Source: Patellaria atrata CBS 101060 (taxonomy: Eukaryota > Ascomycota > Dothideomycetes > Patellariales > Patellariaceae). Taken from it: DNA of 29,533 bases. The position numbers and the translations under genes were made by a program. The notes under the pieces are model-generated. The model did not search any database. It was not told where the DNA came from and saw only the letters and a list, made by a program, of their open reading frames with translations. The stretch spans positions 179,953 to 209,485 of the forward strand of contig MU006106.1 of the NCBI GenBank assembly GCA_010093705.1, read 5' to 3'. Below, one piece after another: positions 1 through 29,024 of the stretch. Within the stretch, counting starts at the first letter, position 1. Each line of letters begins with the position of its first letter.

Positions 1-589
1 GTTGCTGTTCGAAGCGAGTGTTAAGATACAAACAAAGATGAAGTGGATCGGTTAGCTTTATGAATGCCGAGTATGTAAGTTGTATAATACAGTCAGTCCT
101 GGGCTGTATAACTAAGTGTATAGAAGACAAGTAGAGAGAAGATGTTGTACGGACTACGGAGGAGTGTATTACACACCTTCCTGTTTCGGAGAGCTTGGGA
201 TGTGAGAGAGAGGGGAGCTCTAAGGTAGAGCTACCTTTATGCTGGAGTGGGGTAAAGAGTACAAGGGGGTGACCTTTTGAGGTATATATTGAGTAAATTC
301 AGCATTTTGATCTGGTACTGTACCTCTCGAAGCACACTTCAGAGCCAGAGACCCTCGTTTGATATTTACATTATTGACTGAATGAATGCTTATCTATCTC
401 ATGCTAATGTAGGTATGAGTCTTTTCGTCACAGTCGGAATCAGCAAACCACTGATTTGCACATGCTTTTGTGCTGCCTTTGATATCATACCTTCGTAGAA
501 ATACCAGTTCCTGAGTGTTCCCTCACTGATATGACCTCTCTCTAACTCTGCTCTTAGTAGGATCCTTCTGCTCTTCTCTCATTAGTCTC
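1..589. other. Intergenic, no gene seen (downstream of rvt)
   Basis: No frame here resembles a known protein. It is presumably the 3' flank of the rvt gene, which ends at 590 on the minus strand. Two small inverted repeats are visible: AAGGTAG-AG-CTACCTT at 222-237 and GGTAC-T-GTACC at 314-324. Nothing else could be supported. Confidence 0.6.
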
Positions 590-3313
590 CTATCCCATCC
601 ATCTAACCCTCTCGCTTTTAAGAACATCCACCAGACCAACCGGCAAGAGGGACTTCTCTCCCAACTGCAGACCTCCAAACCTCTCAACCAAATGCCCGGC
701 ATACAACTGAACGATCCAAGCCCAATACGGCTTCTTCGCCTCAGCATGCCAAGTCAGGGTTGTGGGCAGAGTTGAAAACGCCTTCTTAACATCTGCTGTC
801 TCCTCGACCGTCTCTTCTCCTGGGACGGCGAGCAAGAAGCTGAAGGCCTTGGATAAGTGCGTAGAAGTCTCTTCCTGATACCTGGTGAATTCTTCGAACG
901 TCATGAAAGGTTCGTCGGATTCCGATTCAGATGCATCCTGAGGGCGGATGACACGCGAGCGCCTCTGCTGGCTAGCCAACTCACCCTTATTCCATTGCTT
1001 CTTGAGACGGTCATACTCGTCTGTCTCTTCCTCAAATGCCTGATCGATTCGCTTTGTCACGTTTCGAGGAGAAAGCTTATAGCTTGTGTACAAGGTGACG
1101 AATGGATTGCGAAGTTCCAGTCCTCCTAGCTCCACGGGAAAGTAGAAGAAACCATCTGGGACATGTTCAGCACCAAACCTTTCCTTTAGCATACCACGTA
1201 GATAATCCGTGACGTTTCCACTGCCTGTATCGGAGAAGAGTTTCAATTGGATGTGCTCGAATGTCTCGATCACCATATCGAGATGCTTACGTCCAAAACA
1301 GTTCGCGGGTTGTCCAAAATTGGTACTGAAGAATCGAGAGACATAACTATTCCAAGCTTGAACCCACGCAAAAACACTACGGCAAGCTCCCAGTTGAAGA
1401 CGCAGCTCAGCAATGTGCGTATCCACTTGTTCTCTGTCGATGATCCAACGACCTTCCACCGAATCGAGATATAAGAAGCCCCATCGGATCTTGCCACTGG
1501 GAAGTGACGTAGGAACTTTGGCATTCTTCTTCTTCGGATCGTCAACAATTTTCGTAGCGCCGGTCTTCTCCTCATTGAGTTCCATACCCATGATGGTAGA
1601 GAATTCTTTCAGGGCGTTCCAACCGTCAACGACAACACTCTCCTGACCCCAAAACCACAGATCATCATGGAACCGGTAGATGTTCGCTCCCTTTGTTCGC
1701 TTGTTCATGGCGAAGTCAAGGCAAAACATAACAGCCTCACCGAAAGCATCACTGAGAACGTGGCTCATGGGGATACCACACTTCCGGATCTGCGGTTGAG
1801 CATCTGGTCCATCCTGTACAAACACTACCGGCGAACTAAGAAACCTTTGAAAAAATCGCAACCATTTACCAGGGACGCCAAAGAATTTCAATACAGCGAA
1901 GATAGTATCATGCGGCAAAGATGGACCGAACCACTTGAAGTCCGACTGTAGAATGTTGAATTCGCCGTATATCTTCGTATTTAGGAGCATCTCTGCTGTA
2001 ATAAGGCGCAACATAGACTGTTTGATGGCTAGGGGAGTTTTCGTATCGTCCACTCCTGAGTCGGTCTCATCATTGTAATCGCGCGGGGTTAACGAGGCGC
2101 TATCCGGTAACTGTGTCATGAAGTAGTTCTCTTGATACATCGCCCTCCTCATGTTCCGTACAGAGTTGGTCTCAAGTCTGCTGTCACCCAAGAAATACTC
2201 TCGTCTCTCTTTGCCCTTCTTACTAATCGAACGGTAAGGAGACTGGGTCCATGCTCCGGAATGATAGAACTTAATAAAAGCGTCCTTCAATGCTACGGCC
2301 CAAGTAGTTCCAATGAAGTGAAGGAGGATAGCTTGATGAATCTCCTCGTCCATGAAGGCACGATACTTCCCGTTTAGCTGTCTACGCATCTGCATTGGTA
2401 CAGGTGATGGTTCCCATTGCCACTCATCTAGACTGTCCAGATCCATGTTCAGGACATCGACCATTTCACTGAGAACAGTAGTCCTAGATTGTAAGTCTAC
2501 AAGTGCTTCTCGCTTTTTACCAACGAAGAGATCCGCTTTCAACACTCCTTTGATGCATATTTTGAGTTTATCGATGGTAAATCTCTCATGAGAAGTGACG
2601 ATGCGGTCAGTCTCATAGTCTTCCTTCTTATCCTTGAGATCAGATTTGAAATCCATTACTTTCTTCATCGAATCTCGTAACTCTTTGAGTGGCGTCTTCT
2701 TCACCTTCTTAGATTGCAACGTAGATCCAAACAGCTCGTCGAGATATTTCTCAATCTTGCTTTGGTCGACCTTCTTCTCGGTGAAAGCATAAGACTCCCA
2801 TTGCTTACGTTGTTCATGCATCTCTTCGCGTCCAACGTGGCTAAAGGTCGAGGAACCGCTGTCACTGTCCGAATCAGAACCGTTACCACCAGCTTGGGGA
2901 TTCTCGGCGTCGGACGGAGTCGTCAGAAGCGCATCATTTGGGTTTTTGATCCATTCGGTGACAAGATTTCCGAACAAGGAAGCATATTCGTATTTCAAGC
3001 TCTGAATATCTAGACCATGTTCTAGTTTTGCTTGCCAATCTTTAAGCATGTGAGGAGATACGGAAGGATCATAGTGAGATTGGCGTATAAAACGGTCGAG
3101 ATTCTTAGCTGACAGCCCGATTTGTCGCATGTCAATGTTGTAGTCGTCATACCCGTCCAAGAGTTTGCAAACCTTGCTACGTTGGTGTGGAGCTGCGGCA
3201 ACGGCATCCAGGATTGACTTCTTCTCCGATTCATACTTCTCACGTTGATCGGCCAGCTTACTTAATTTCCGCTCGGTAACATGATGAAGAGTGGAAAGAA
3301 CTGCTGCGGCCAT
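590..3313 (-). CDS. rvt: Cellular reverse transcriptase-related protein RVT (domesticated, single-exon)
   Basis: An uninterrupted 907-residue frame whose first ATG, at 3313, follows an in-frame TGA a short way upstream. Polymerase motif A is SDFKWFG with D458, motif B is GIPMSHVLSD near 513-522, the catalytic box is FHDDLWFWG with D550 and D551, and motif D includes N580 and K583. All three metal-binding aspartates are therefore present. Before the RT core lies a charged, helix-rich N-terminal half (a likely coiled coil around 165-275) with an acidic serine tract near 145-155; a long insert precedes motif A. No integrase, endonuclease, RNase H, gag or terminal repeat is visible beside it. This matches the rvt genes described in fungi and other groups, which are usually single-copy, non-mobile and under purifying selection. 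Neurospora RVT is reported to be induced by translation inhibitors and to form multimers. The cellular role is unknown. The FHDD version of the usual YxDD box fits the family. Confidence 0.88.
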   Translation of the reverse strand: MAAAVLSTLHHVTERKLSKLADQREKYESEKKSILDAVAAAPHQRSKVCKLLDGYDDYNIDMRQIGLSAKNLDRFIRQSHYDPSVSPHMLKDWQAKLEHGLDIQSLKYEYASLFGNLVTEWIKNPNDALLTTPSDAENPQAGGNGSDSDSDSGSSTFSHVGREEMHEQRKQWESYAFTEKKVDQSKIEKYLDELFGSTLQSKKVKKTPLKELRDSMKKVMDFKSDLKDKKEDYETDRIVTSHERFTIDKLKICIKGVLKADLFVGKKREALVDLQSRTTVLSEMVDVLNMDLDSLDEWQWEPSPVPMQMRRQLNGKYRAFMDEEIHQAILLHFIGTTWAVALKDAFIKFYHSGAWTQSPYRSISKKGKERREYFLGDSRLETNSVRNMRRAMYQENYFMTQLPDSASLTPRDYNDETDSGVDDTKTPLAIKQSMLRLITAEMLLNTKIYGEFNILQSDFKWFGPSLPHDTIFAVLKFFGVPGKWLRFFQRFLSSPVVFVQDGPDAQPQIRKCGIPMSHVLSDAFGEAVMFCLDFAMNKRTKGANIYRFHDDLWFWGQESVVVDGWNALKEFSTIMGMELNEEKTGATKIVDDPKKKNAKVPTSLPSGKIRWGFLYLDSVEGRWIIDREQVDTHIAELRLQLGACRSVFAWVQAWNSYVSRFFSTNFGQPANCFGRKHLDMVIETFEHIQLKLFSDTGSGNVTDYLRGMLKERFGAEHVPDGFFYFPVELGGLELRNPFVTLYTSYKLSPRNVTKRIDQAFEEETDEYDRLKKQWNKGELASQQRRSRVIRPQDASESESDEPFMTFEEFTRYQEETSTHLSKAFSFLLAVPGEETVEETADVKKAFSTLPTTLTWHAEAKKPYWAWIVQLYAGHLVERFGGLQLGEKSLLPVGLVDVLKSERVRWMG

Positions 3314-3976
3314 GGTGGAGGAAGTAATTGTCTGTCTGTACGATCAATCCCGTTAAGCTTGATGGGAAGAGTTGGAATAAGCTGGAATTGGTATATCTGG
3401 GGTAACCGATCCTGGGAGTGTTTCCTCGATGCAACGTGCAGATTGACTCCTAAGATCAAGTTCCTGATGGTATAATCTCTTTTATGAGTGTGACACACGG
3501 ATTAGGCGGTCAACAAGAGGTTCCGTGATGAGAATGTCCTCAAGGGAATTGGAAAGGTGCTGTAGAGTAGAGTGGAAGAAAGAAAGGTTTGAGTTAAAAT
3601 ATAAGAGATGTTAAAATGTATTGATTGGAAAGGAATTTTTTATGTACATTTCCCGCTAAGGCAGCAGTGACAACACATTGAGTGAGTCAGGTGCGGTGAG
3701 CCTAGCTGAGCAACTGCGGTGTCTACATTTTATGATGAAAAGAGGAATTAATCGATGCCTAAAAGGAAGATGTACTCTCTGAGAGGAGGTGTACTCCACC
3801 CGATAGTATTCGTGGATGGAAAGAAACCTAGAAGAACTATAGTGAAAGTGGGCGAGGGTGAGAATCTGATCAAAGCACGGTGCATAACTCATAATTCTCT
3901 CCCTTATTTACCAAAAAATACATCAACCCCTAAAAAGAAGCGAAAATCTGCATGAAAAAATGCTAAAAAAGAAAAT
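3314..3976. promoter_or_regulatory. Upstream region of rvt, no gene seen
   Basis: This stretch between the rvt start and the 3' end of tRNA-Phe should hold the rvt promoter and 5' leader. A 66-codon plus-strand frame at 3755-3955 exists, but its composition is unremarkable and it ends in a lysine-rich tail over A-rich DNA; I do not accept it as a gene. No clear TATA box or known operator could be assigned. Confidence 0.45.
3965..3976 (-). terminator. RNA polymerase III terminator of tRNA-Phe
   Basis: On the minus strand, just after the tRNA discriminator base, come four T, one C and six T. This is the usual oligo-T stop for RNA polymerase III. Confidence 0.8.
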
Positions 3977-4067
3977 TGTCGCTTGTGTGGATCGAACACA
4001 CTACCTTCAGATTTGATGATTGAAGTTATACTTCAGTCTGACGATCTCCCAAATGATCTAAAGCGAC
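3977..4067 (-). tRNA. tRNA-Phe (anticodon GAA) with an 18-nt intron
   Basis: The minus strand folds into a full cloverleaf. The acceptor stem GTCGCTT (4067-4061) pairs with AAGCGAC (3984-3978), with discriminator A at 3977. The D stem is GATC/GATC around a TTTGGGA-type loop. The anticodon stem is TCAGA/TCTGA with GAA at 4034-4032. The T arm is GTGTG-TTCGATC-CACAC. The intron (4030-4013) sits one base 3' of the anticodon, the canonical eukaryotic position, and contains ACTTCAA, which can pair with the anticodon. Removing it leaves 73 nt without CCA, the normal size. The box B sequence TTCGATCC and the oligo-T terminator support an active gene. Identity is Phe by anticodon and by similarity of the anticodon arm to yeast tRNA-Phe. 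Confidence 0.95.
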
Positions 4068-4627
4068 TAAATGATTGTTGAGAATCGTTTTGAGTACAGT
4101 ACTACATAAATTTCATAATAGCTGCCTAAACCCCGCTTTTGAACCATGGCACACATTTAGCCAATAGTGCAGTGATCTGAAAAAGGTTCACCGACAAGTC
4201 CCCGGCAAGATATACAATACAAAGTTACTTATCCTCTGTGGATGGTGGAGTATCCATATCTCGTATCAAGGCATCGAGTACATTTTTACCATTCTTCACT
4301 ATTGAACATTTGAAATAGGGATTTTACACTCCATCATAGTCATAGATTGATGACATAACTTAAAAGGGTGTATATATATGATTTCCCCTGGAAGATTCAC
4401 ATTATAGCACTCTTTTACCATAGCCATGCACATGAGAACCATTCTAAACTGTACTTCTATACGGGAACAATTTGGTCTCTCTCAATGTGGAACCTCTACA
4501 CCCACCTTTAAGCCAACGAGTCAACACCACCCCTGTCATTCACGCACTCGAAGCCTTATCAAAACACTCCTCTCCAACACGCTCAATCGGATGCAAAAGA
4601 CCGAAACCACAAACCATCTCTATGCTT
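4068..4627. other. Intergenic between tRNA-Phe and SEC14
   Basis: This is the 5' flank of the tRNA gene and the 3' flank of SEC14, both on the minus strand. AT-rich DNA includes a TATATATATG run near 4371-4380. Short plus-strand frames starting near 4426 run antisense into the SEC14 3' end and are not supported as genes. Confidence 0.5.
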
Positions 4628-5812
4628 TTAAGCCGCGGCAGGTGCGGGCGCGGGTGCTTTCCCCTCCAGTGTCGTTTCACCTTGCGGTGCAACTGTGCTC
4701 TCCGTCTGAGGAGCCGCCTCAGCCGACTCAGGCTTATTCTCAATAGTGTCATCGTCCCGCTTAGCCCACTTAGGAGGTGTATAGTATTCCCGCTCCTGCC
4801 AAGGGCCTGCATCGCTAAGCATGCAACCCTCAGCGCACTCGCACGAACCGCCAAACGCAGTAGGAAGATTCTCCTTGGGGATTTGCGCGAGCAACTCCTT
4901 CTCGTAGCCGGTACCTAAAATGTGGATCTTCTCCACAGTAACGGGGTCCAAGAACCTCTTGACGAAGTTGAAGACGGCGCCGAAACCCCAGGGTGCGTTG
5001 ATGACGTAGAGCTTTCCGAGCCGCTCGGGATAGTAGTTTTGTGATATCGCCGAGACCTTTCCCAGGTAACCGTACACTGAGCTAGCTTTTGAGATACCCA
5101 CCCCTTTAAGGTCCATTATGGAGCAGGAGGTTTCGAGCAGGTGTCCAGCCTTGCGACAGCAGGCTGGGAGACGAGGATCAGCCATCTTCTCGTACTCGCA
5201 CACGAGATTCTGTATCATGCGTTCTTCGGTCGTAATTTTGTACATAGCCGTCAGATCGACTTTGCCCAGTTGCTCGATGTATACAGGGCGTCCATCCTTG
5301 AAGCTGTTTAGCAAACGGTCTATCCGAAATTCGGGTGTCCCACCTTGTCCGTTTTATGGTAATACTGGGGATAATACTGAAAAACCTTTGGTTTCTCCTT
5401 ATAATCAAATGTTCTGACTAGATTCTCAACACCACCTCCAAATTCACTCCGCCACTTCTCAGAGTCGATAAACCTAATAGAGTAAGCCCCGCCGCAGCTG
5501 ATATGGACCAAAAATTACATTTGTTTGGAGAGTTCGACGTTGAATTTTCGTGCTCGTAGGAATCTGAGCTAGCCGTACTATTAGAATTTTAATCCACGTC
5601 GGGGGTAGCTGAGCGAACTCTACCATGGTCATAGTATCCAGTCTCTCAGTATAACCGGCCTGCTCGAGCAGTGATCTCAGCTGGAAAACTTGCGCATCCT
5701 GCTCGGGTGTTGTCCAGCCAGGATGTCCATTGTGTGGGACGGGGCTGTTCGTTGGGAAGTCGTAGTTATCGTACTTAGGATCTTGCTTCAAGGGGTTTTC
5801 GACAGGTGCCAT
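4628..5812 (-). CDS. SEC14: SEC14 phosphatidylinositol/phosphatidylcholine transfer protein
   Basis: Four exons: 5812-5624, 5568-5519, 5473-5344 and 5296-4628, giving 345 residues. Introns are 55, 45 and 47 nt. Joining them restores the Sec14 lipid-binding fold in order: an N-terminal CRAL-TRIO-N helix pair with [11 protein letters not shown] from exons 1-2, [21 protein letters not shown], then [51 protein letters not shown] and the closing [19 protein letters not shown]. Sec14 exchanges PtdIns and PtdCho at Golgi/endosomal membranes and primes PtdIns 4-kinase signalling. A 50-residue Ala/Pro/Glu-rich tail follows the domain. The third intron ends in AAG rather than the usual YAG, the only acceptor that keeps the conserved K-D-G-R-P junction. 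The start is chosen because the following residues match fungal Sec14 N-termini ([10 protein letters not shown], then [13 protein letters not shown]). Confidence 0.95.
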
Positions 5813-6249
5813 GTTGTATTACGCTTGCGGAAAGAAAAAAGAATAGCGGAATAGTAAGTAAAGAGTGCCTGCTCCCTCTAAGATATTTGCAGGGAGACTG
5901 TGAGAGTGGGGAGCTGAATGTTGCTAGGGGAGCTAGTCTAACGTAAAGTGTAGGTGTGATGTGTTTTGAGGATGAGGTTGCCGAGAGAGGACGTTGAAAA
6001 AACACAACCAACGTTCTCGCCAGATGATGCATAGCTGCATCATGATTGGATATACTTTTGCATGCACCTCGATATCATGTGAATTCCTCAACACTTATGA
6101 TTTCCATGTCTTAATTAGTCAGACGATAGTTAGTAGCACCATACGGATATTATAACAAGTCACAGGCACACATATACTGCACAGTAGAGCTATGGAATTT
6201 TGAAGCATAACAAGTGCAAGTCATATTGCCTATATGGAAATGAAGATGT
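5813..6249. promoter_or_regulatory. SEC14 upstream region / acrB 3' flank
   Basis: A 437-bp spacer between two minus-strand genes. It should contain the SEC14 promoter and 5' leader, and the acrB terminator. Short frames here do not resemble proteins. Confidence 0.5.
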
Positions 6250-16331: not shown

Positions 16332-16447
16332 ATGGCCGATGGTCCCTACCGGTTCCAACAGGGAGCCGGTCATTTCTACTATTCACAACACAACCAACAA
16401 AATCATCACCAAAGACACGGTCAACGCGCTGGATCGCCGGTCAATAA
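16172..16447 (+). other. Upstream ORF overlapping the CCR4 start
   Basis: A 91-codon frame opens with ATG at 16172 and ends inside the CCR4 coding sequence in another frame, spanning the CCR4 ATG at 16332. The peptide has no family resemblance. If it is in the mature leader it would lower CCR4 translation; it may instead be removed by an unseen 5' intron or lie upstream of the transcription start. Confidence 0.4.
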
Positions 16448-18726
16448 CACGCGTATTGGCGGATTCAGTAACGACACTCCTTCTCCCTCACGATCACCGG
16501 GGCCGCAGTCCCCCGCACATAACACCTACGGCATGTACAACCAAGGCCACCACCAACATGGTCAACATGGGATGATGAACGGCGGCACTGGGCATCAACG
16601 ATATGCTATGCAAATGAGCATGAGCAAGCAATATCAGCACCAAAATCACCATAACCAGGGCCATCAGCACCAACAAGCACAGGATCATGCTGGTCACGGA
16701 CATGGAGCGCATGTTGGCGGTCATCAACATAACCTCTCCAGTGGGGGCATGTCCAACGTGCAGCCTCATTTCAATCAACATCACATGCAAAACGGTACAC
16801 CTTCAAGCTTGCACAGTGGTCTAAACAAACCTCCTACTGAACACTGGACTCTCCAGTTGCAGCTTGCGCAGGGAGCCCGAGAAATGACAATGGCGCATTC
16901 GCATGCACGGAACCACCCAATGGTAAACAAAAGCATAGTAGCGGGAGTGAGCAGTGGAATGAAGGAAAGGGACAAAGAGGAACGGAATCGTGCAGGAGGC
17001 GAGACAAATGACGCAGGGCGACAGAAACAGGTCTGGGCCGCATTAGATTTTGGAGGTCAAAATCTGAAAGTTATATCTCCAACGTTATTCGGATATCCGT
17101 TCCTTACAAAGTTGTTTTTGAATGCCAACAAGCTTTCCTACCTCCCATCAGCAATCGGACGGCTGCGAAATTTGACCCAGTTGGATCTATCGCTCAATCA
17201 GCTCACCGAGCTACCTCCGGAAGTGGGCATGTTAGTTAACCTCAGAGAGCTTTTAGTGATCGACAATAACCTCGAAACCTTGCCGTTTGAGATGGGGTCG
17301 CTGTACCAGCTGGAAATCCTTGGTGTCGAAGGTAATCCTCTTCACGATGATTTTAAATCAATCATCGTGGAGCATGGAACCGGCGAGTTAATCAAACATC
17401 TTCGTGAACAAGCGCCAGGTAAGTAACATTGGTAGCGGCGCATAGCATTTACAATAATTAACCTTTGTAGGGCCGGAACCACCGCGGGATCGGGATTGGA
17501 TATCCCTGGATGATTCGTTGGAAAACCTTGATGATAGATTCTCGGTGATAAGCTGGAACACTCTTTGTGACAAATATGCTACACAATCTCAATATGGATA
17601 TACTCCCTCGGCGGCATTGGACTGGGGACACCGTAAGGAAGTCATTTTGGACGAGATCCGGAACCGTAACGCAGATATCATCTGTCTACAGGAAGTAGAT
17701 CTCGAGAGTTTTAATGACTTCTTCCGTTCCGCACTCGCACATAATGATTACAAGGGAGTATTCTGGAACAAAAGCCGGGCTAAGACCATGGGCGAGAGGG
17801 AAGCTAAATTGGTTGATGGTTGTGCTACGTTCTACAGGAATAAGAGGTCTGCCTAATTTGATTCGGATCATCATAGAGTTCTGCTAACAGTTAGCAGGTT
17901 CATTTTGCTAGATAAACAGCTTATTGCTTTTGGAAATATAGCCATTAACCGACCAGACATGAAAGGCGAACATGACATATTCAACCGCGTCATGCCTCGA
18001 GATGATATAGCCGTTGTATGCTTCTTTGAGGACCGAATGAAGGGGACTCGATTGATTGTTGTCAATGCTCACGTTTTCTGGGACCCTGTCTTCAAAGATG
18101 TCAAGGTCGTCCAGGTAGCAATTCTTATGGAGCAGATTACCAAACTTGCCGAGCAATATGCAAAATGGCCGCCTTGCAAAGACAAAGCTCTTTACCGTTT
18201 TGCCGACGAAGACAAAATCGGAGAAGAATCGGCAGAGCTTCCAGAGGAGCCTGCACCGTCTATGGAATACGGTGAAGGTCCTCAAATTCCTCTTATAATG
18301 TGTGGAGACTACAACTCGCTTCCCAACGATTCTGGAGTGTACGAGCTTCTCGCCTCGGGATCACTTTCAAGCGCACACTCCGATCTTAACGGGAGAAAGT
18401 ACGGAAATTTCACGCGGGATGGGATGAGCCACCCCTTTAGCCTCCGTTCAGCTTATAATCACGTGGGAGAGCTGAACTTTACCAACTATACACCCACATT
18501 TACCGGCGTCATTGATTACATCTGGTATTCAACGAACGCGTTGAACGTGACGGGTCTACTAGGCGAGATTGACAAGGAATACTTGCAACGAGTGCCCGGC
18601 TTTCCCAACTATCATTTCCCCAGCGATCATTTAGCTCTTCAGGCGCAATTTTCGGTCAAGGGTAGGAAGGAAAAAAAAATAGTAGAAGCGGATTTTGGCC
18701 CGTCTTCGCGAGATAGAAGAACATGA
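16332..18726 (+). CDS. CCR4: CCR4 poly(A)-specific 3' exonuclease of the CCR4-NOT complex
   Basis: Three exons, 16332-17418, 17471-17846 and 17898-18726, with 52- and 51-nt introns, encode 763 residues. Residues 1-165 are very rich in His, Gln, Asn and Gly and are probably disordered. Leucine-rich repeats occupy about 235-345 (LFLNANKLSYLPSAIG, LDLSLNQLTELPPEVG, LLVIDNNLETLPFEMG); in yeast these dock Ccr4 on Caf1/Pop2. The endonuclease/exonuclease/phosphatase fold follows from about 385, with N393 in SWNTL, E438 in LQEVD, D625 and N627 in GDYNSLPNDS, D694 in GVIDYIW, and D731-H732 in PSDHLAL. All residues expected for Mg-dependent deadenylation are present. The second intron restores YRNKRFILLDKQLIAF. 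The protein shortens mRNA poly(A) tails in the cytoplasm. The start is the first ATG in frame before the disordered region. Confidence 0.96.
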
Positions 18727-19716: not shown

Positions 19717-21395
19717 ATGGGTCTCATCACTCTCCGGGATCTTGTCCAATTTCCCGCTGGCGACAATGATACCGACACCTTCATAAATGGCAGGCACTAC
19801 AATCTAACCGCGTTAGAATTGTACGACTACCGCCTCTTCGAGAACCACACGGGACAGTTTACCATCTCCAATGAATCGAGATGCTATCTGATATTCGACA
19901 AGTACCAGCCTTTCTTATATCCGAATGGCAGCTGGGTCAATGGCACTTCCTGCTACTTTCCGTATTACGAAATTGGCACACGGGGTGCGGCTGGTGTTGC
20001 GTTTGCGGCCTTGTTTACCGCGAGTATCATGTTTACTCTGATCAATCTGAGGAAGCATGGTAAACTATATCTAAGGGAGGATAGGCGCTTCAGAGTTGTT
20101 GGTAGGAGGTGGCAGTGGTATTGGATGCTATTTGTGGCAGCTTGTGCAATGATTAGCACACTCACAGGGGTCGACGTGGATCGAAACTATCTGCAAGGCC
20201 TGCCCATAGTTTTACAAAGTTTTTTCTTCTCATTGATGATACCTGGAACGCTTGCGATGGTGTGGGAAGCTACAAGACACTGGTTTGTGTCACTAAAGTA
20301 CTGGCCTTTGGTAACAATAGCTAACAATAATAGGGGCTCATGGCAAGAGAGACAGATCTGTGATCGCGATATATACGGTTTACCCCAGGATGATCGAAGA
20401 AGCAAGACGGAGTTCTATCTACCGCTGATTTTTTATCTATTTGCGTGGTTGGTGGGTAGCCTCCCTATAACGTAACATTTTCTTATTTCAATGATCTGCT
20501 TACCCTCTACTAGAACTTCTTCATGGTCATTCCCCGTGCCTGGGATCCCCTCCAGAAGCAGCGTTCGCTCTTACAGCAAGAGACAATTGCCGGTCCTTCT
20601 GCTACGGACGTTCGCATGAAAGCCGGCTCAATCATGGCAGCTATCGCCTGGTTCGTTATCTGCTTTTCACTCCGTCATAGCATCCACCACTACAAACCAA
20701 AGAATCGTGGCATGTGGAACAGTTTCAATGGATTCTGTCACTACTGTCCGACTAAGCTATTCCTTGCCATCGTACTTCTCGCCTTACGCATCGCCTACGC
20801 TATTGCCAGCGCGTGGGAATTTGACATAAGTCTTCTCAAGTATGACAGCAACCCAGCGTGGCCTTATACCCTTGGGTACGGGTCTACGATCCTTATTATG
20901 ATCGTCCTTGAAGTGGCTGGCTTTATCGACGAGAATGAGGATAAGATCCTCATCGCACAGCGCGCTGAACGTGGACGTGCTGCTGATGCGGAGCTTGGAT
21001 ATACCGCTAAACCGAACTGGTGGTCTAAGATGACAAGTCACATACACATGACGGACGATCAGCGCCTGCGAGCTCTGACATCTGAGGTCCATGGTGTTAC
21101 CCAGCCGACGGAAAGAGGTCTCGCGGAAGGCGTCGAGCTAGGCACGATGCCGCGCAACAGGTCTCGTAGTCGCCAACAAGGGGACCCTTTTACGGATATG
21201 CGCACTGGAGCTGATGGACTGAGGGGAGCTACTCTTGGGGCTGGAGCGGGAAGAAAAATAGGTGTGACCACAGCCACTACCGGAGGTACATTGACCAGGG
21301 AGACGAGCATGGCACCGAGTACGCGGACAACCGGAAGCGACAACACATTGACAGGAGTCCAACCTCAGACTATACGGAGTATGTTGGATATTTAA
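19717..21395 (+). CDS. DUF2434-like polytopic membrane protein with seven predicted segments
   Basis: Exons 19717-20451 and 20514-21395, joined in phase 0 across a 62-nt GTGGGT...TAG intron with a GCTTAC branch site, encode 538 residues. The first 89 residues lack a strongly hydrophobic stretch but carry six N-glycosylation sequons (N17, N29, N43, N52, N70, N75). Hydrophobic segments lie at about 90-111, 133-150, 161-183, 232-252 (spanning the splice junction), 282-299, 326-346 and 363-383. A 155-residue Thr/Arg/Gly-rich tail follows. Positive residues after segment 1 (LRKHGKLYLREDRRFR) suggest that loop is cytosolic, so the sequon-rich N-terminus faces the lumen or exterior and the tail is cytosolic. 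The family resemblance is to fungal DUF2434, recalled from the overall sequence rather than a search. Function is unknown. An N-out seven-segment layout is receptor-like, but I see no GPCR signature motif. Confidence 0.75.
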
Positions 21396-24644: not shown

Positions 24645-27600
24645 ATGTCAAGTATCAAGGCCGCTTTGAAGGCCGCAAAAGCGGCGCTGGATGCGCAGAA
24701 ATATGAGGATGCAGTTGTACAAGCTAATAATGTGCTTGCATCCGATCCACAGAACTATTTCGCGTAGGTAACCTTACTCACTGTATCATCGTAATCTCTC
24801 ATTTGGATGCTTTCATCTCGCTAACTAAGTCAGTACCATATTCCTAGGCAGAGCTCATGAGAAATCAGAAAACTACGAGGATGCCGCGAAGGCATACACC
24901 AGCGCAACGAAGTTAAAGCCGAAAGATGACCAAGCATGGTTAGGTTTGCGGAGTCTATACGAGAGTCAGGGAAGTAGTAAAGTTGATGAGTATATCACCG
25001 TTGGAGTGAGGCTGGCAGAGATCTATGGCGAAACGTAATGCATACTGTCCTTTCCATGATTACTTTTGTACGGTACTAATTTTTAATATATAGCGACGAT
25101 AACCATAGATGCGCCTCCGCTATACACAAAGTCACAGATCTTGTCAAAGTAAAAGGAACAACTGCAGATTTAAAACGTACATTAGAAATACAGTTACCAA
25201 CAAGCCCGATATACAGTTACATAGAAGGCTTTGTACCTCACCCTTCCCACACATATCTAAGACTCGCGGAGATTATTGAGAATGAGGAGAAGGAACGTAT
25301 AAACAAACTGATTGGAGAAAGGAGGACCCGTCTAGGAGCTAGAATTGCACAAGTCACAACGGAAGCCAAGCGGGAGGTACTCAGTAACAGCCCTCTGGAG
25401 GACATATACCAGAAGATCATCGATTGGACCAACGACGACGATGTGCGGCGAGATCATGAGGAAAAGCTCCTTCGGCGGTGTCTCGAGCTTTTACATGTGC
25501 TTCCCAAGGAACATAAGGAGACCAAAAGGAAGGAGGTTGAAAAGATTGCTCGTGGGATGGTCATTGTCAAGCATAAGTTTCAGATTGCGTGGTGTATTGA
25601 CATCGAATGGAAAGATGTTGAAAATATCCAAGAGCATGACGGAGGTGTTTTACGAGAGTTTGTCGAATTCTTCCCAGAGAGTGGCCTTTCCGAAGTACTT
25701 AAGGGTTACCTAGGTAGCGAGATATCTCCGTTCCCACTACCGCAAAAGGATGATACAAACCAACAAAACGGAGAGAGCGATGATAACCAAGATGCAATTC
25801 TGAGTACTGAGGATCGGCTAATACTAATGACAGAAGGTTTGGACCTGTGTAAAGAGTCCATACTGGCTCATCGCTTGATGGGAGATTACTACCTCTATCT
25901 TGAAGAATACGAAAGTGCAGTTGATATTGCGCGTAAGGGGCTCCGTTTTGTTCGCTCTGAAACTGATAAATCCGGACTTGCGTTAAGAAATCATATCGAT
26001 GCACTGAATATAATACTAGCAACGTCCTTGATCCACTACCAGTCCCCCAAGAATCATCCTGAAGCGAAGTCAATTTTCAACGAGCTGCTAAAGCGCAAGC
26101 CCTCCTCCACCCCAGCTCTGATAGGTGTTGGATTGATTCTCGAGGAAGAAGAAGAGTACGAAGCGGCAATTGATTTTTTAGGCCGTGCGCTAATGAAGGA
26201 TCCTGGGAATACACGTATAGGGGCAGAGGTAGCATGGTGCAAAGCACTAAATGGCAATCTAACTAAAGGCTTAGAAGAACTTGAGACATACGTTGAACAG
26301 ATGGAAGTAACTGACACACGGTCTCGAGATTTACGCTCTCAAACACTATACCGAATAGGAAAATGTATGTGGGACTTAAACCCGGCACGAGCGGCACGGA
26401 AGGACCGTAATGGAGCTTACACTAAATATCTTGCATCTATCAAGACGAATCCGAATTATGCGCCAGCCTACACAAGCCTTGGATTCTTCTACTCGGATTA
26501 CGCCAGGGACAAGAGGAGGGCGCGGCAATGCTTCCAAAAAGCATTCGAACTATCAGTCTTTGAAATTGAGGCTGCTGAAAGACTAGCAAGAGCCTTCGCA
26601 GACGAAGGAGATTGGGACATAGTGGAGGTAGTCGCTCAGCGTGCTATAGACTCAGGCAAACGGAGACCCGCGCCTGGTTCGAAGAAGAAGGGTATTAGCT
26701 GGCCGTACTCTGCTCTCGGCGTGGTGCAGATGAACAAACAAGAATACGCGAAGGCTGTAGTATCGTTTCTTGCAGCATTGCGGATTAGTCCCGATGACTA
26801 TCATTCATATGTGGGCCTTGGAGAAGCATATCATAATTCAGGTCGTTACAATTCCGCGGCTCGAACATTCAACTACGCTGAACATCCAGAAGATGGAGTT
26901 CAAATGAAAAAGACTGGCGAAAGTTGGTTTACACAATATATGCTCGCAAATGTAAAGAGAGAACTGGGCCAGTATGATGATGCAATAGATGGTTATAAAC
27001 ACGTTCTGAGTGATCGGCCGACGGAATTTGGTGTCTCGATAACTCTACTCCAGACGTTGGTGGAACGAGCTTGGAGGTGTGTTGAAACAGGATTCTTTGG
27101 GAAAGCAGCTGATAGTGCAATAGAAGCTATTGGTATAGCTGAAGGCATAGCTAAATACAGACCTGATGCTTTCAATCTGTGGAAAGCACTGGGAGACGCA
27201 TCTTCTGTCTTTTCTTTCGTCCAGAGCCGTTTGAAGGACCTCCCTTTCGAAAAGGTCCAAAGTCTCCTTGGAAAGGGGGTGTCAGTAGATCAATATGATT
27301 TATTCCAAGAAGCCGACGGTATCAATAAAGCATCGCTACAAACTCTTACAAGTGAAGACGAAGGCTTAAATTCCCCATCTTCTATTCTCCCACGCTGCTT
27401 AAACGCTTCAATTCTCGCCCATAAACGAGCAATCAATAGTTGTGCACACGATATACACGCACAAGCCGTAGCATGGTTTAACCTTGGGTGGACTGAGTTC
27501 CGAGTTCATAAATGTCTCGAAACAGATTCCGCAACAGGACAGACTAAGCAGCAGAACAAGTTTTTGAAAGCTTCAATGCGATGTTTCAAACGTGCAATCG

Positions 27601-29024
27601 AGCTTGAGGCTGGAAACTCAGAATTTTGGAACGCGTTAGGAGTCGTGACAACAAAAATGAATCCAAAAGTGGCCCAACACTCGTTCGTCAGGAGTCTACA
27701 CCTTAACGAACGGAGCGTAAGGACATGGACTAACTTGGGCGTCCTGTATCTTCTACAGAACGATTTGGAGTTAGCACATCAAGCTTTCTCTCGTGCTCAG
27801 TCTACCGATCCTGACTACGCCCACGCATGGCTTGGAGAAGGTCTGGTCGCTCTGCTTTGGGGTGATACGAAAGAAGCTCTAGCCCATTTTACACATGCAT
27901 ATGAGATATCAGACTCCGGCTCCCTTATCGCAAAACGTCAATATACCCTTTCCGCATTTGACCATCTCATATCCTCCTCAAATACCTTAACTAGTATAAA
28001 TGACCTAATCCAACCTCTATTCGCCCTCGAACAACTCCGCTCCCAAGAGCCCTCCGACCTCCCTCATAACCATCTTGCAGCCCTCTTTCTCGAACGCGTT
28101 GGCAAACACGATGAAGCCATCACTACCCTCGAAGCGATCTGCACCACCGCAGAATCTAACTACGAGGTCTCCGAATCCCCCTCTGAGCTCTCCACTTTCG
28201 CCAAAGCAAAGACAGACCTGGCACGCAACCGCCTCGCAGTCGACGACTACAGCAACGCGGCCACAGACGCCGAAACCGCCCTCGACCTCATGTCCGAAGA
28301 GGACAGCACGACACTGTCCAAAGACGCGCTCCGCCGCACTCGTCTATCCGCTCATATCACAACCGGCCTATCGCACTTCTACCTCTGCGACATCGACGCC
28401 TCCCTCGCTACTTTCCGCACCGCGCTCGAAGAAAGCGGTTCCGCGCCCGACGTCGTCTGCCTCCTTGCCCGCATTCTCTGGGCTAAAGGTGGCACAGACG
28501 AGAAAGCCGTCGCGAAAGAGCAACTCTTCGACGCTATTGAACGGCATCCCGGTCACGTCGGCGCGAGCGTGCTCATCGGTGCCATTGCGGCGATCGAGGG
28601 AGACGAGGAGACGATGGAGGCTGTGAGAGATGATCTCGAGTCTCTCCGTACCGAACCCAAGCTCTCTTACCAGCAAAAGAAGAATGTAGAGGGTGTGCTT
28701 GAGGCCATCGCTGCACTTGGGCCGGGTGGGGATGAAGCGGAACTGGAGCAGTTGCGGACGGCGATTATGTTGACGCCGGCGGGGAGTCATGGGTGGAGCT
28801 TGCTTGCTGGTGCTGTGGAAGGGGATGGGGAGTTTGCGGCACGCATGGCGTTGAAGACGGCGCAGAGACAGGTACCGCCGAGAGGGGCGATTGGAGCGGA
28901 GGAGCTTGCGAGGACGTTTGCGGGGACGGGGAGTGTGGGTGATGCGCAGAGAGCGGTTATGGTTGCGCCGTGGTTGCGGGATGGATGGGAGTGCTTGGTC
29001 GAAGCGGTGGATGGGGTGGCGTGA
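24645..29024 (+). CDS. SKI3: SKI3 tetratricopeptide scaffold of the Ski complex
   Basis: Exons 24645-24763, 24834-25034 and 25094-29024, with introns of 70 and 59 nt, encode 1416 residues, the size expected for fungal Ski3. The N-terminus is MSSIKAALKAAKAALDAQKY, and the first splice gives NYFATIFLGRAHEKSENYED. Tetratricopeptide repeats run through most of the protein, for example LAHRLMGDYYLYLEEYESAV, NPNYAPAYTSLGFFYSDYAR, ALGVVQMNKQEYAKAVVSFL, VRTWTNLGVLYLLQNDLELA and DYAHAWLGEGLVALLWGDTK. Ski3 holds the Ski2 helicase and two Ski8 subunits together and feeds mRNA to the cytoplasmic exosome for 3'-5' decay and nonstop decay. No signal peptide or membrane segment is visible. Base composition changes sharply near the 3' end (see findings), but the frame stays open. 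Confidence 0.95.

Follow-up and report, generated by a model that had tools for sequence, protein, structure and literature searches.

A single-copy host rvt gene of Patellaria atrata encodes a polymerase-like protein with glycine at the steric-gate position

What does a lone, intact reverse transcriptase (RT) gene do in a fungal genome? This question is raised by a locus of Patellaria atrata CBS 101060 (contig MU006106.1, positions 179,953 to 209,485; these 29,533 nucleotides are referred to as the window, and positions are counted from its first letter). The first-pass annotation of the window had pointed to an intact and apparently active rvt gene, that is, a cellular RT gene, lying among ordinary housekeeping genes. 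The analysis described here supports membership of the encoded protein in the known rvt class and supports the gene as the host's own, with a settled place in the genome and outside any mobile element. Taken as a whole, the locus is, with modest confidence, best explained as a single host rvt gene encoding an untemplated, stress-induced polymerase with a glycine at the steric gate and priming from a tyrosine. The difference at the gate offers a simple reason why fungal and bacterial products might differ.

The gene is a single uninterrupted open reading frame (ORF) of 907 codons running from ATG to stop, with the start codon embedded in the context CCACCATGG. An unbroken frame of 907 residues had been noted before, though with no strand given. 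It is read from the minus strand, and frame 1 of the plus strand contains many stops across the same interval (590..3313). When the window was simulated 100 times with a first-order Markov (Markov-1) model, the longest ORF starting with ATG had a mean length of 142 and a maximum of 206 amino acids, by which a chance origin of the 907-residue frame is excluded.

General family collections do not place the protein. Searches of Pfam, NCBIfam and PHROGs gave no meaningful match, the listed E-values of 0.069, 0.15 and 0.043 being at chance level; with a limit of E 10, Pfam lists a single match (E 0.069), which is to an unrelated family and falls short of the cut-off, HMMER filters hiding most weak matches. 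The PADLOC profile RT_UG37 matches the protein with an E-value of 6.5e-65, the best stretch covering residues 241-776, and in the genome search it matched the N-terminal part as well (profile positions 7-209). Comparison with the bacterial homologues by hhalign gave a probability of 100 and an E-value of 1.9e-39 over residues 8-745, and a hidden Markov model (HMM) built from nine bacterial proteins matched the fungal protein at E 8.6e-72. In the controls for this model the best of 200 shuffled sequences reached E 0.0058 and the best of 79 segments from RVT_1 loci of the same genome E 0.013, while the reversed protein gave no match up to E 10. These RVT_1 loci, 15 in number, are the best-scoring of 56 matches to the Pfam RT profile, with flanks included and related copies among them.

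The bacterial homologues stem from Chloroflexota, the phylum of an Anaerolineales record, in which 15 of 400 genomes matched RT_UG37 at E <= 1e-20. Twelve of these matches are full length, and the remaining three (G338, G275 and G238) are fragments and were left out. At the same threshold no match was obtained in 395 genomes of Bacteroidota, 296 of Actinomycetota and 294 of Planctomycetota, and none in ten further genomes at E <= 1e-10; the Chloroflexota search serves as the positive control for the searches that yielded nothing. The fungal protein aligns end to end with all 12 full-length homologues. Across the resulting 13 sequences 62 columns are invariant, including the catalytic aspartates, N580, K583, G585-A586, Y745, Y863-W864-x-W866 and Y871. 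The close duplicates L093, L095 and L096 are contained in this 13-row alignment and omitted from the nine-protein alignment. Among six close bacterial homologues the ratio of nonsynonymous to synonymous substitution rates (dN/dS) ranges from 0.066 to 0.153 over 15 pairs, indicating purifying selection on the family within that bacterial group.

Full-length homology, rarity and host phylum together suggest that RT_UG37 represents the bacterial side of rvt. The bacterial RVT studied so far reportedly comes from Herpetosiphon, a member of the Chloroflexota. A literature search for UG37 retrieved no paper devoted to such an RT family by title, and the strength of the match to RT_UG37, which is catalogued with phage defence, suggests that two literatures may describe one family. 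No match to the protein was found in phages by tblastn, nor in viral contigs. Among plasmids, 111 records contained one weak palm match each, the best with E 0.05 over 23% of the query; nine of the 20 listed are annotated, all as group II intron RTs. A peptide-pattern search of genome contigs matched six stretches and a motif C pattern 53 + 17 stretches, none of them a relative (best E for motif C outside the genome of P. atrata, 1.1). The HDDLWFW motif is absent from the bacterial members aligned.

The predicted protein can be divided into an N-terminal domain, an RT palm and a C-terminal domain (Table 1). The N-terminal domain, which is shared with the bacterial homologues, is presumably where the coiled coil of the family lies. 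Motifs A to D of the palm are placed by the alignments with the bacterial homologues, and the family profile was also aligned to solved RTs. The catalytic triad D458, D550 and D551 and the motif D lysine named in the first-pass annotation are found as described there, the lysine being K583, and all four residues are invariant in the 13 sequences. Lys316 lies 142 residues ahead of Asp458; judged by eye, Lys316 and Arg318 may represent motif 2, and the interval between them and motif A would then be the expected place of loop 2a. In the accessible text of PMC5718144, a big loop 2a before motif A is given as a feature of rvt, which is described there as the one group of RTs that occurs in bacteria as well as in eukaryotes. 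Inserts relative to the bacterial homologues lie near residues 140-165, where the fungal protein is acidic, and near 826-862, over about 36 residues. The earlier wording 'apparently active' is an inference from the conserved residues. The name 'reverse transcriptase' may be misleading, since the active site in combination with the literature points to untemplated, possibly ribonucleotide, polymerisation.

This suggestion derives from the vicinity of the first catalytic aspartate. The residue five positions after the motif A aspartate forms the steric gate by which RTs exclude ribonucleotides. In the fungal protein motif A reads SDFKWFGPSL, which places Gly463 at this site. The bacterial homologues carry a tyrosine instead, six distinct solved RT sequences a phenylalanine, with an ungapped alignment at this point, and all 15 RVT_1 loci examined in the same genome (of 56) either phenylalanine or tyrosine. 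Glycine at the gate position leads to the prediction that the fungal enzyme uses ribonucleotides (NTPs), and Gly463 would be the residue that sets this use. The 2011 paper of Gladyshev and Arkhipova is said to report a preference of Neurospora RVT for NTPs, in agreement with the gate prediction, and a 2018 paper reportedly describes a bacterial enzyme that uses dNTPs and shows reduced priming when the conserved C-terminal tyrosines are missing. The prediction also fits the terminal transferase activity of Neurospora RVT reported in the accessible part of PMC3520738.

The available excerpt of PMC8381367 ascribes an RNA-dependent RNA polymerase activity to RVT proteins and cites the 2011 paper for it. 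In PMC8934634 and PMC4920403, as far as accessible, the abbreviation RVT has other meanings. RNA polymerisation by fungal RVT is therefore not a new idea, and the addition made here is the single-residue cause; no statement of the gate difference was found in the literature searched, which left out the 2011 and 2018 papers. Tentatively, the ancestor shared with bacterial UG-type RTs may have possessed an aromatic gate, which was lost in the fungal line (Gly463), so that the enzyme would now, under translation stress, extend itself or the ends of RNA with ribonucleotides. We regard this scenario as a serious possibility, though not as the probable course of events. If it is true, a single residue would explain why the product changed from DNA to RNA between the two halves of the family, bacterial and eukaryotic.

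Conserved tyrosines near the C-terminus and protein priming are counted among the features of the rvt class, as are multimer formation and a preference for NTPs. In the fungal protein the invariant Tyr863 and Tyr871 are the obvious candidates for the priming residue; Tyr745 is likewise invariant in 13 of 13 sequences. In the working proposed here, the N-terminal region would bring the protein into multimers, while the RT palm would polymerise nucleotides without an external template. A tyrosine near the protein's own C-terminus and/or the 3' ends of RNA would provide the starting point, and the glycine at the steric gate would admit ribonucleotides. Synthesis of the protein would set in upon a translation block or amino-acid shortage and would aid the cell through the stress. 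Parts of this outline come from published work, as far as the accessible parts of the sources go: Neurospora RVT is non-essential, is induced when protein synthesis is inhibited and acts as a terminal transferase in vitro (PMC3520738), and rvt genes are of help to bacteria, to fungi and to rotifers when amino acids are lacking or certain antibiotics are present, a relief of stress that involves non-templated polymerisation and requires intact catalytic residues (PMC10680173). By analogy, the copy in P. atrata may act as these proteins do.

An RT palm could also indicate a retrotransposon, or part of one, or an RT recently captured from an element, and the RVT_1 profile finds at least 56 matches at E <= 0.01 in this genome. 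A few frames among these matches are open. None of the 56 falls on the rvt locus, 45 of them contain internal stops, as opposed to the unbroken rvt frame, and the protein has one place in its own genome by tblastn (28.3 Mb, 46 contigs). The RT_UG37 profile likewise recovers this locus only, matched as two pieces. Neither direct nor inverted repeats of 20 bp or more were found in positions 1-6000 of the window, and neither flank, 1-589 or 3314-4640, has a match elsewhere in the genome, in a search that skips simple repeats. Repeat-induced point mutation (RIP) is recognised by a TpA/ApT ratio above 0.89 and a substrate index below 1.03. Both signs are present in 10 of the 15 RVT_1 loci examined, two of which (L010 and L014) consist partly of N, and neither is present in the rvt ORF, with values of 0.62 and 1.17. 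An origin from an element is thus very improbable, the more so as the protein matches a bacterial family of single genes over its full length. In conclusion, single copy, unique and repeat-free flanks, full-length RT_UG37 homology and an intact frame in a genome of mostly stop-bearing RVT_1 matches support the gene as a host gene, in line with the first-pass annotation, whose descriptions of the locus as without duplicate, without element structure and as a host rvt gene are supported in the sequence covered. Two of the signs by which the first-pass annotation would have recognised a mobile element, many copies and flanking repeats, were looked for and not found, and the third, neutral dN/dS, does not hold for the six close bacterial relatives, the group in which it was assessed. 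Among the host RTs of fungi, telomerase is the other one present as a single copy. A telomerase or Penelope-type RT is nevertheless extremely improbable, given that no telomerase family is among the Pfam matches listed for the protein up to E 10 and that the homology runs full length to RT_UG37 instead.

A host gene might still encode a template-using RT that supplies the cell with cDNA built from dNTPs, as all palm motifs are present and the palm region of the family profile aligns to group II intron RTs. However, the steric gate is occupied by glycine and not by an aromatic residue, and the literature, as far as accessible, describes terminal transferase and non-templated activity (PMC3520738, PMC10680173), which makes this reading unlikely. 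Alternatively, the protein could serve in defence, as a polymerase directed against mycoviruses or retroelements, and represent a fungal branch of the UG/Abi (DRT) RTs of bacteria. The only strong profile match, RT_UG37, sits in a defence library, from which AbiP2 (E 9.7e-5) and Drt6 (E 0.0013) match weakly as well, and Abi RTs make random-sequence DNA without template or primer (accessible part of PMC11077055). Inclusion in such a library is, however, no test, and the phenotypes reported concern amino-acid starvation and antibiotics (PMC10680173, in part). In six bacterial loci of 20 kb, neighbours are common to one close species pair (L107 and L108), and apart from this only one weak pair was found (L103 and L104, at 30% identity). 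Only one of ten adjacent bacterial genes scanned encodes a TIR domain, the others being assigned to LRR, glyoxalase-like, MarR, two dehydrogenases, LVIVD-repeat, HisG and APH-type proteins, with one lacking an assignment. A conserved partnership in defence finds no support in this pattern, and a role in defence is accordingly considered improbable.

Two features of the bacterial loci deserve mention in their own right. The TIR protein, which also contains a beta-helix, adjoins a single bacterial rvt gene (L105:11247-12779). Directly upstream of rvt and on the same strand, hisG is found in 6 of the 12 loci (L091-L096), which form one close group; two of these loci are covered over a wider stretch as L107 and L108. 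In L107 the gap between hisG and rvt measures 14 nt, and no other his gene occurs among the eight further neighbours scanned. A link of this adjacency to amino-acid supply is possible.

Several observations weigh against the preferred explanation, an untemplated, stress-induced polymerase encoded by a host rvt gene. Sequence identity to the nine bacterial proteins amounts to 20-26%. Weak RT_UG37 matches (E up to 0.1) were also obtained in 3 of 14 control genomes with other RTs, the same three as with RVT_1; weak matches are therefore not specific, and at E 1e-20 no control genome matched. The two RIP signs do not coincide in 5 of the 15 RVT_1 loci (L002, L004, L006, L007 and L011), and the downstream flank 1-589 of rvt itself shows a high TpA/ApT ratio of 1.14 at a substrate index of 1.03. 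The single-sequence structure model of the protein, in which alone a helix at residues 2-39 appears, has a mean pLDDT of 34.9 and is unusable for fold search or residue placement. Upstream of the gene, seven ATGs lie within 787 nt of the rvt start, and the window contains one TGASTCA site against 5.15 expected. This site reads TGACTCA, which we take to be a GCN4/CPC1-type core. As an amino-acid control site it is treated as a lead only; the accessible part of PMC10191625, on amino-acid starvation, states no CPC-1 motif.

The surroundings of rvt agree with the ordinary gene neighbourhood described in the first-pass annotation, its neighbours in the window being cellular genes (SEC14-like, methyltransferase, CCR4, DUF2434 and SKI3). 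The CCR4-type deadenylase is split into two ORFs, an LRR part and a nuclease part (yeast CCR4 chain 4b8c_D, E 2.5e-47), and by this match the endonuclease-type domain located there is not that of a long interspersed nuclear element (LINE). A SKI3-like TPR protein (E 6.7e-115) lies further along the same strand, and the presence of these two mRNA-decay genes in the window is probably a coincidence. The DUF2434 protein is likewise encoded by two ORFs of 252 and 290 amino acids, which cover model positions 5-184 and 188-294 and presumably form one gene with an intron. Upstream of rvt lies a tRNA gene, to which ARAGORN assigns an undetermined type or, with the intron option, Cys(gca). Judged by eye, it is a tRNA-Phe(GAA) with the intron at the usual position 37/38; Rfam at gathering scores lists no match there. 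Near bacterial rvt a tRNA gene was found in none of six loci.

Table 1. Features of the rvt gene and its surroundings (positions in the window).
Feature	Position	Strand	Remark
rvt gene	590..3313	minus	Single uninterrupted ORF of 907 codons
N-terminal domain, residues ~1-300	2414..3313	minus	Conserved with bacterial homologues (RT_UG37 positions 7-209; hhalign from residue 8)
K316/R318-to-motif A (D458) interval, residues 319-457	1943..2359	minus	Alignment; expected place of loop 2a
RT palm motifs A-D, residues 452-590	1544..1960	minus	Family profile aligned to solved RTs
Catalytic Asp458, motif A	1940..1942	minus	Invariant in 13/13
Gly463, motif A Asp+5	1925..1927	minus	Tyr in 12/12 bacterial homologues
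Catalytic Asp550-Asp551, motif C, FHDDLWFW	1661..1666	minus	Invariant in 13/13
Motif D Lys583	1565..1567	minus	Invariant in 13/13
C-terminal domain, residues 591-907	593..1543	minus	Alignments; ends in conserved YWxW...Y...G...P block
Tyr863, candidate protein primer	725..727	minus	Invariant in 13/13
Tyr871, candidate protein primer	701..703	minus	Invariant in 13/13
TGACTCA	3683..3689	minus	370 bp upstream of rvt ATG
tRNA gene	3977-4067	minus	18-nt intron; 664 bp upstream of rvt ATG
CCR4-type deadenylase	16332-18726	plus	Two ORFs
DUF2434 protein	19717-21395	plus	Two ORFs
SKI3-like TPR protein	25443-29024	plus

Four known systems come closest. With group II intron and maturase RTs, palm motifs A to D align at the level of the family profile, there is no similarity beyond the palm in those alignments, and no maturase domain was found in the rvt protein with Pfam. 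The Abi/DRT polymerases (AbiK, Abi-P2 and DRT9) share the RT fold. In DRT9 two highly conserved C-terminal tyrosines, which resemble the invariant C-terminal tyrosines of the rvt protein, were tested as protein primers (accessible part of PMC12483538); however, the profile matches of this group to the rvt protein (AbiP2, Drt6) are weak. RT_UG37 is homologous from end to end and has in common the catalytic aspartates, the lysine of motif D and the C-terminal YWxW...Y, and differs by a tyrosine at the gate as opposed to Gly463 and by [VIM]DD[IL] in place of the fungal FHDDLWFW. The rvt genes (Gladyshev & Arkhipova 2011; Neurospora crassa RVT), taken as a class from the descriptions in the accessible parts of PMC3520738, PMC10680173 and PMC5718144, share with the gene of P. 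atrata the fungal host and the full-length kinship with bacterial members. Like it, they are single-copy and non-mobile and combine an RT palm with N- and C-terminal domains.

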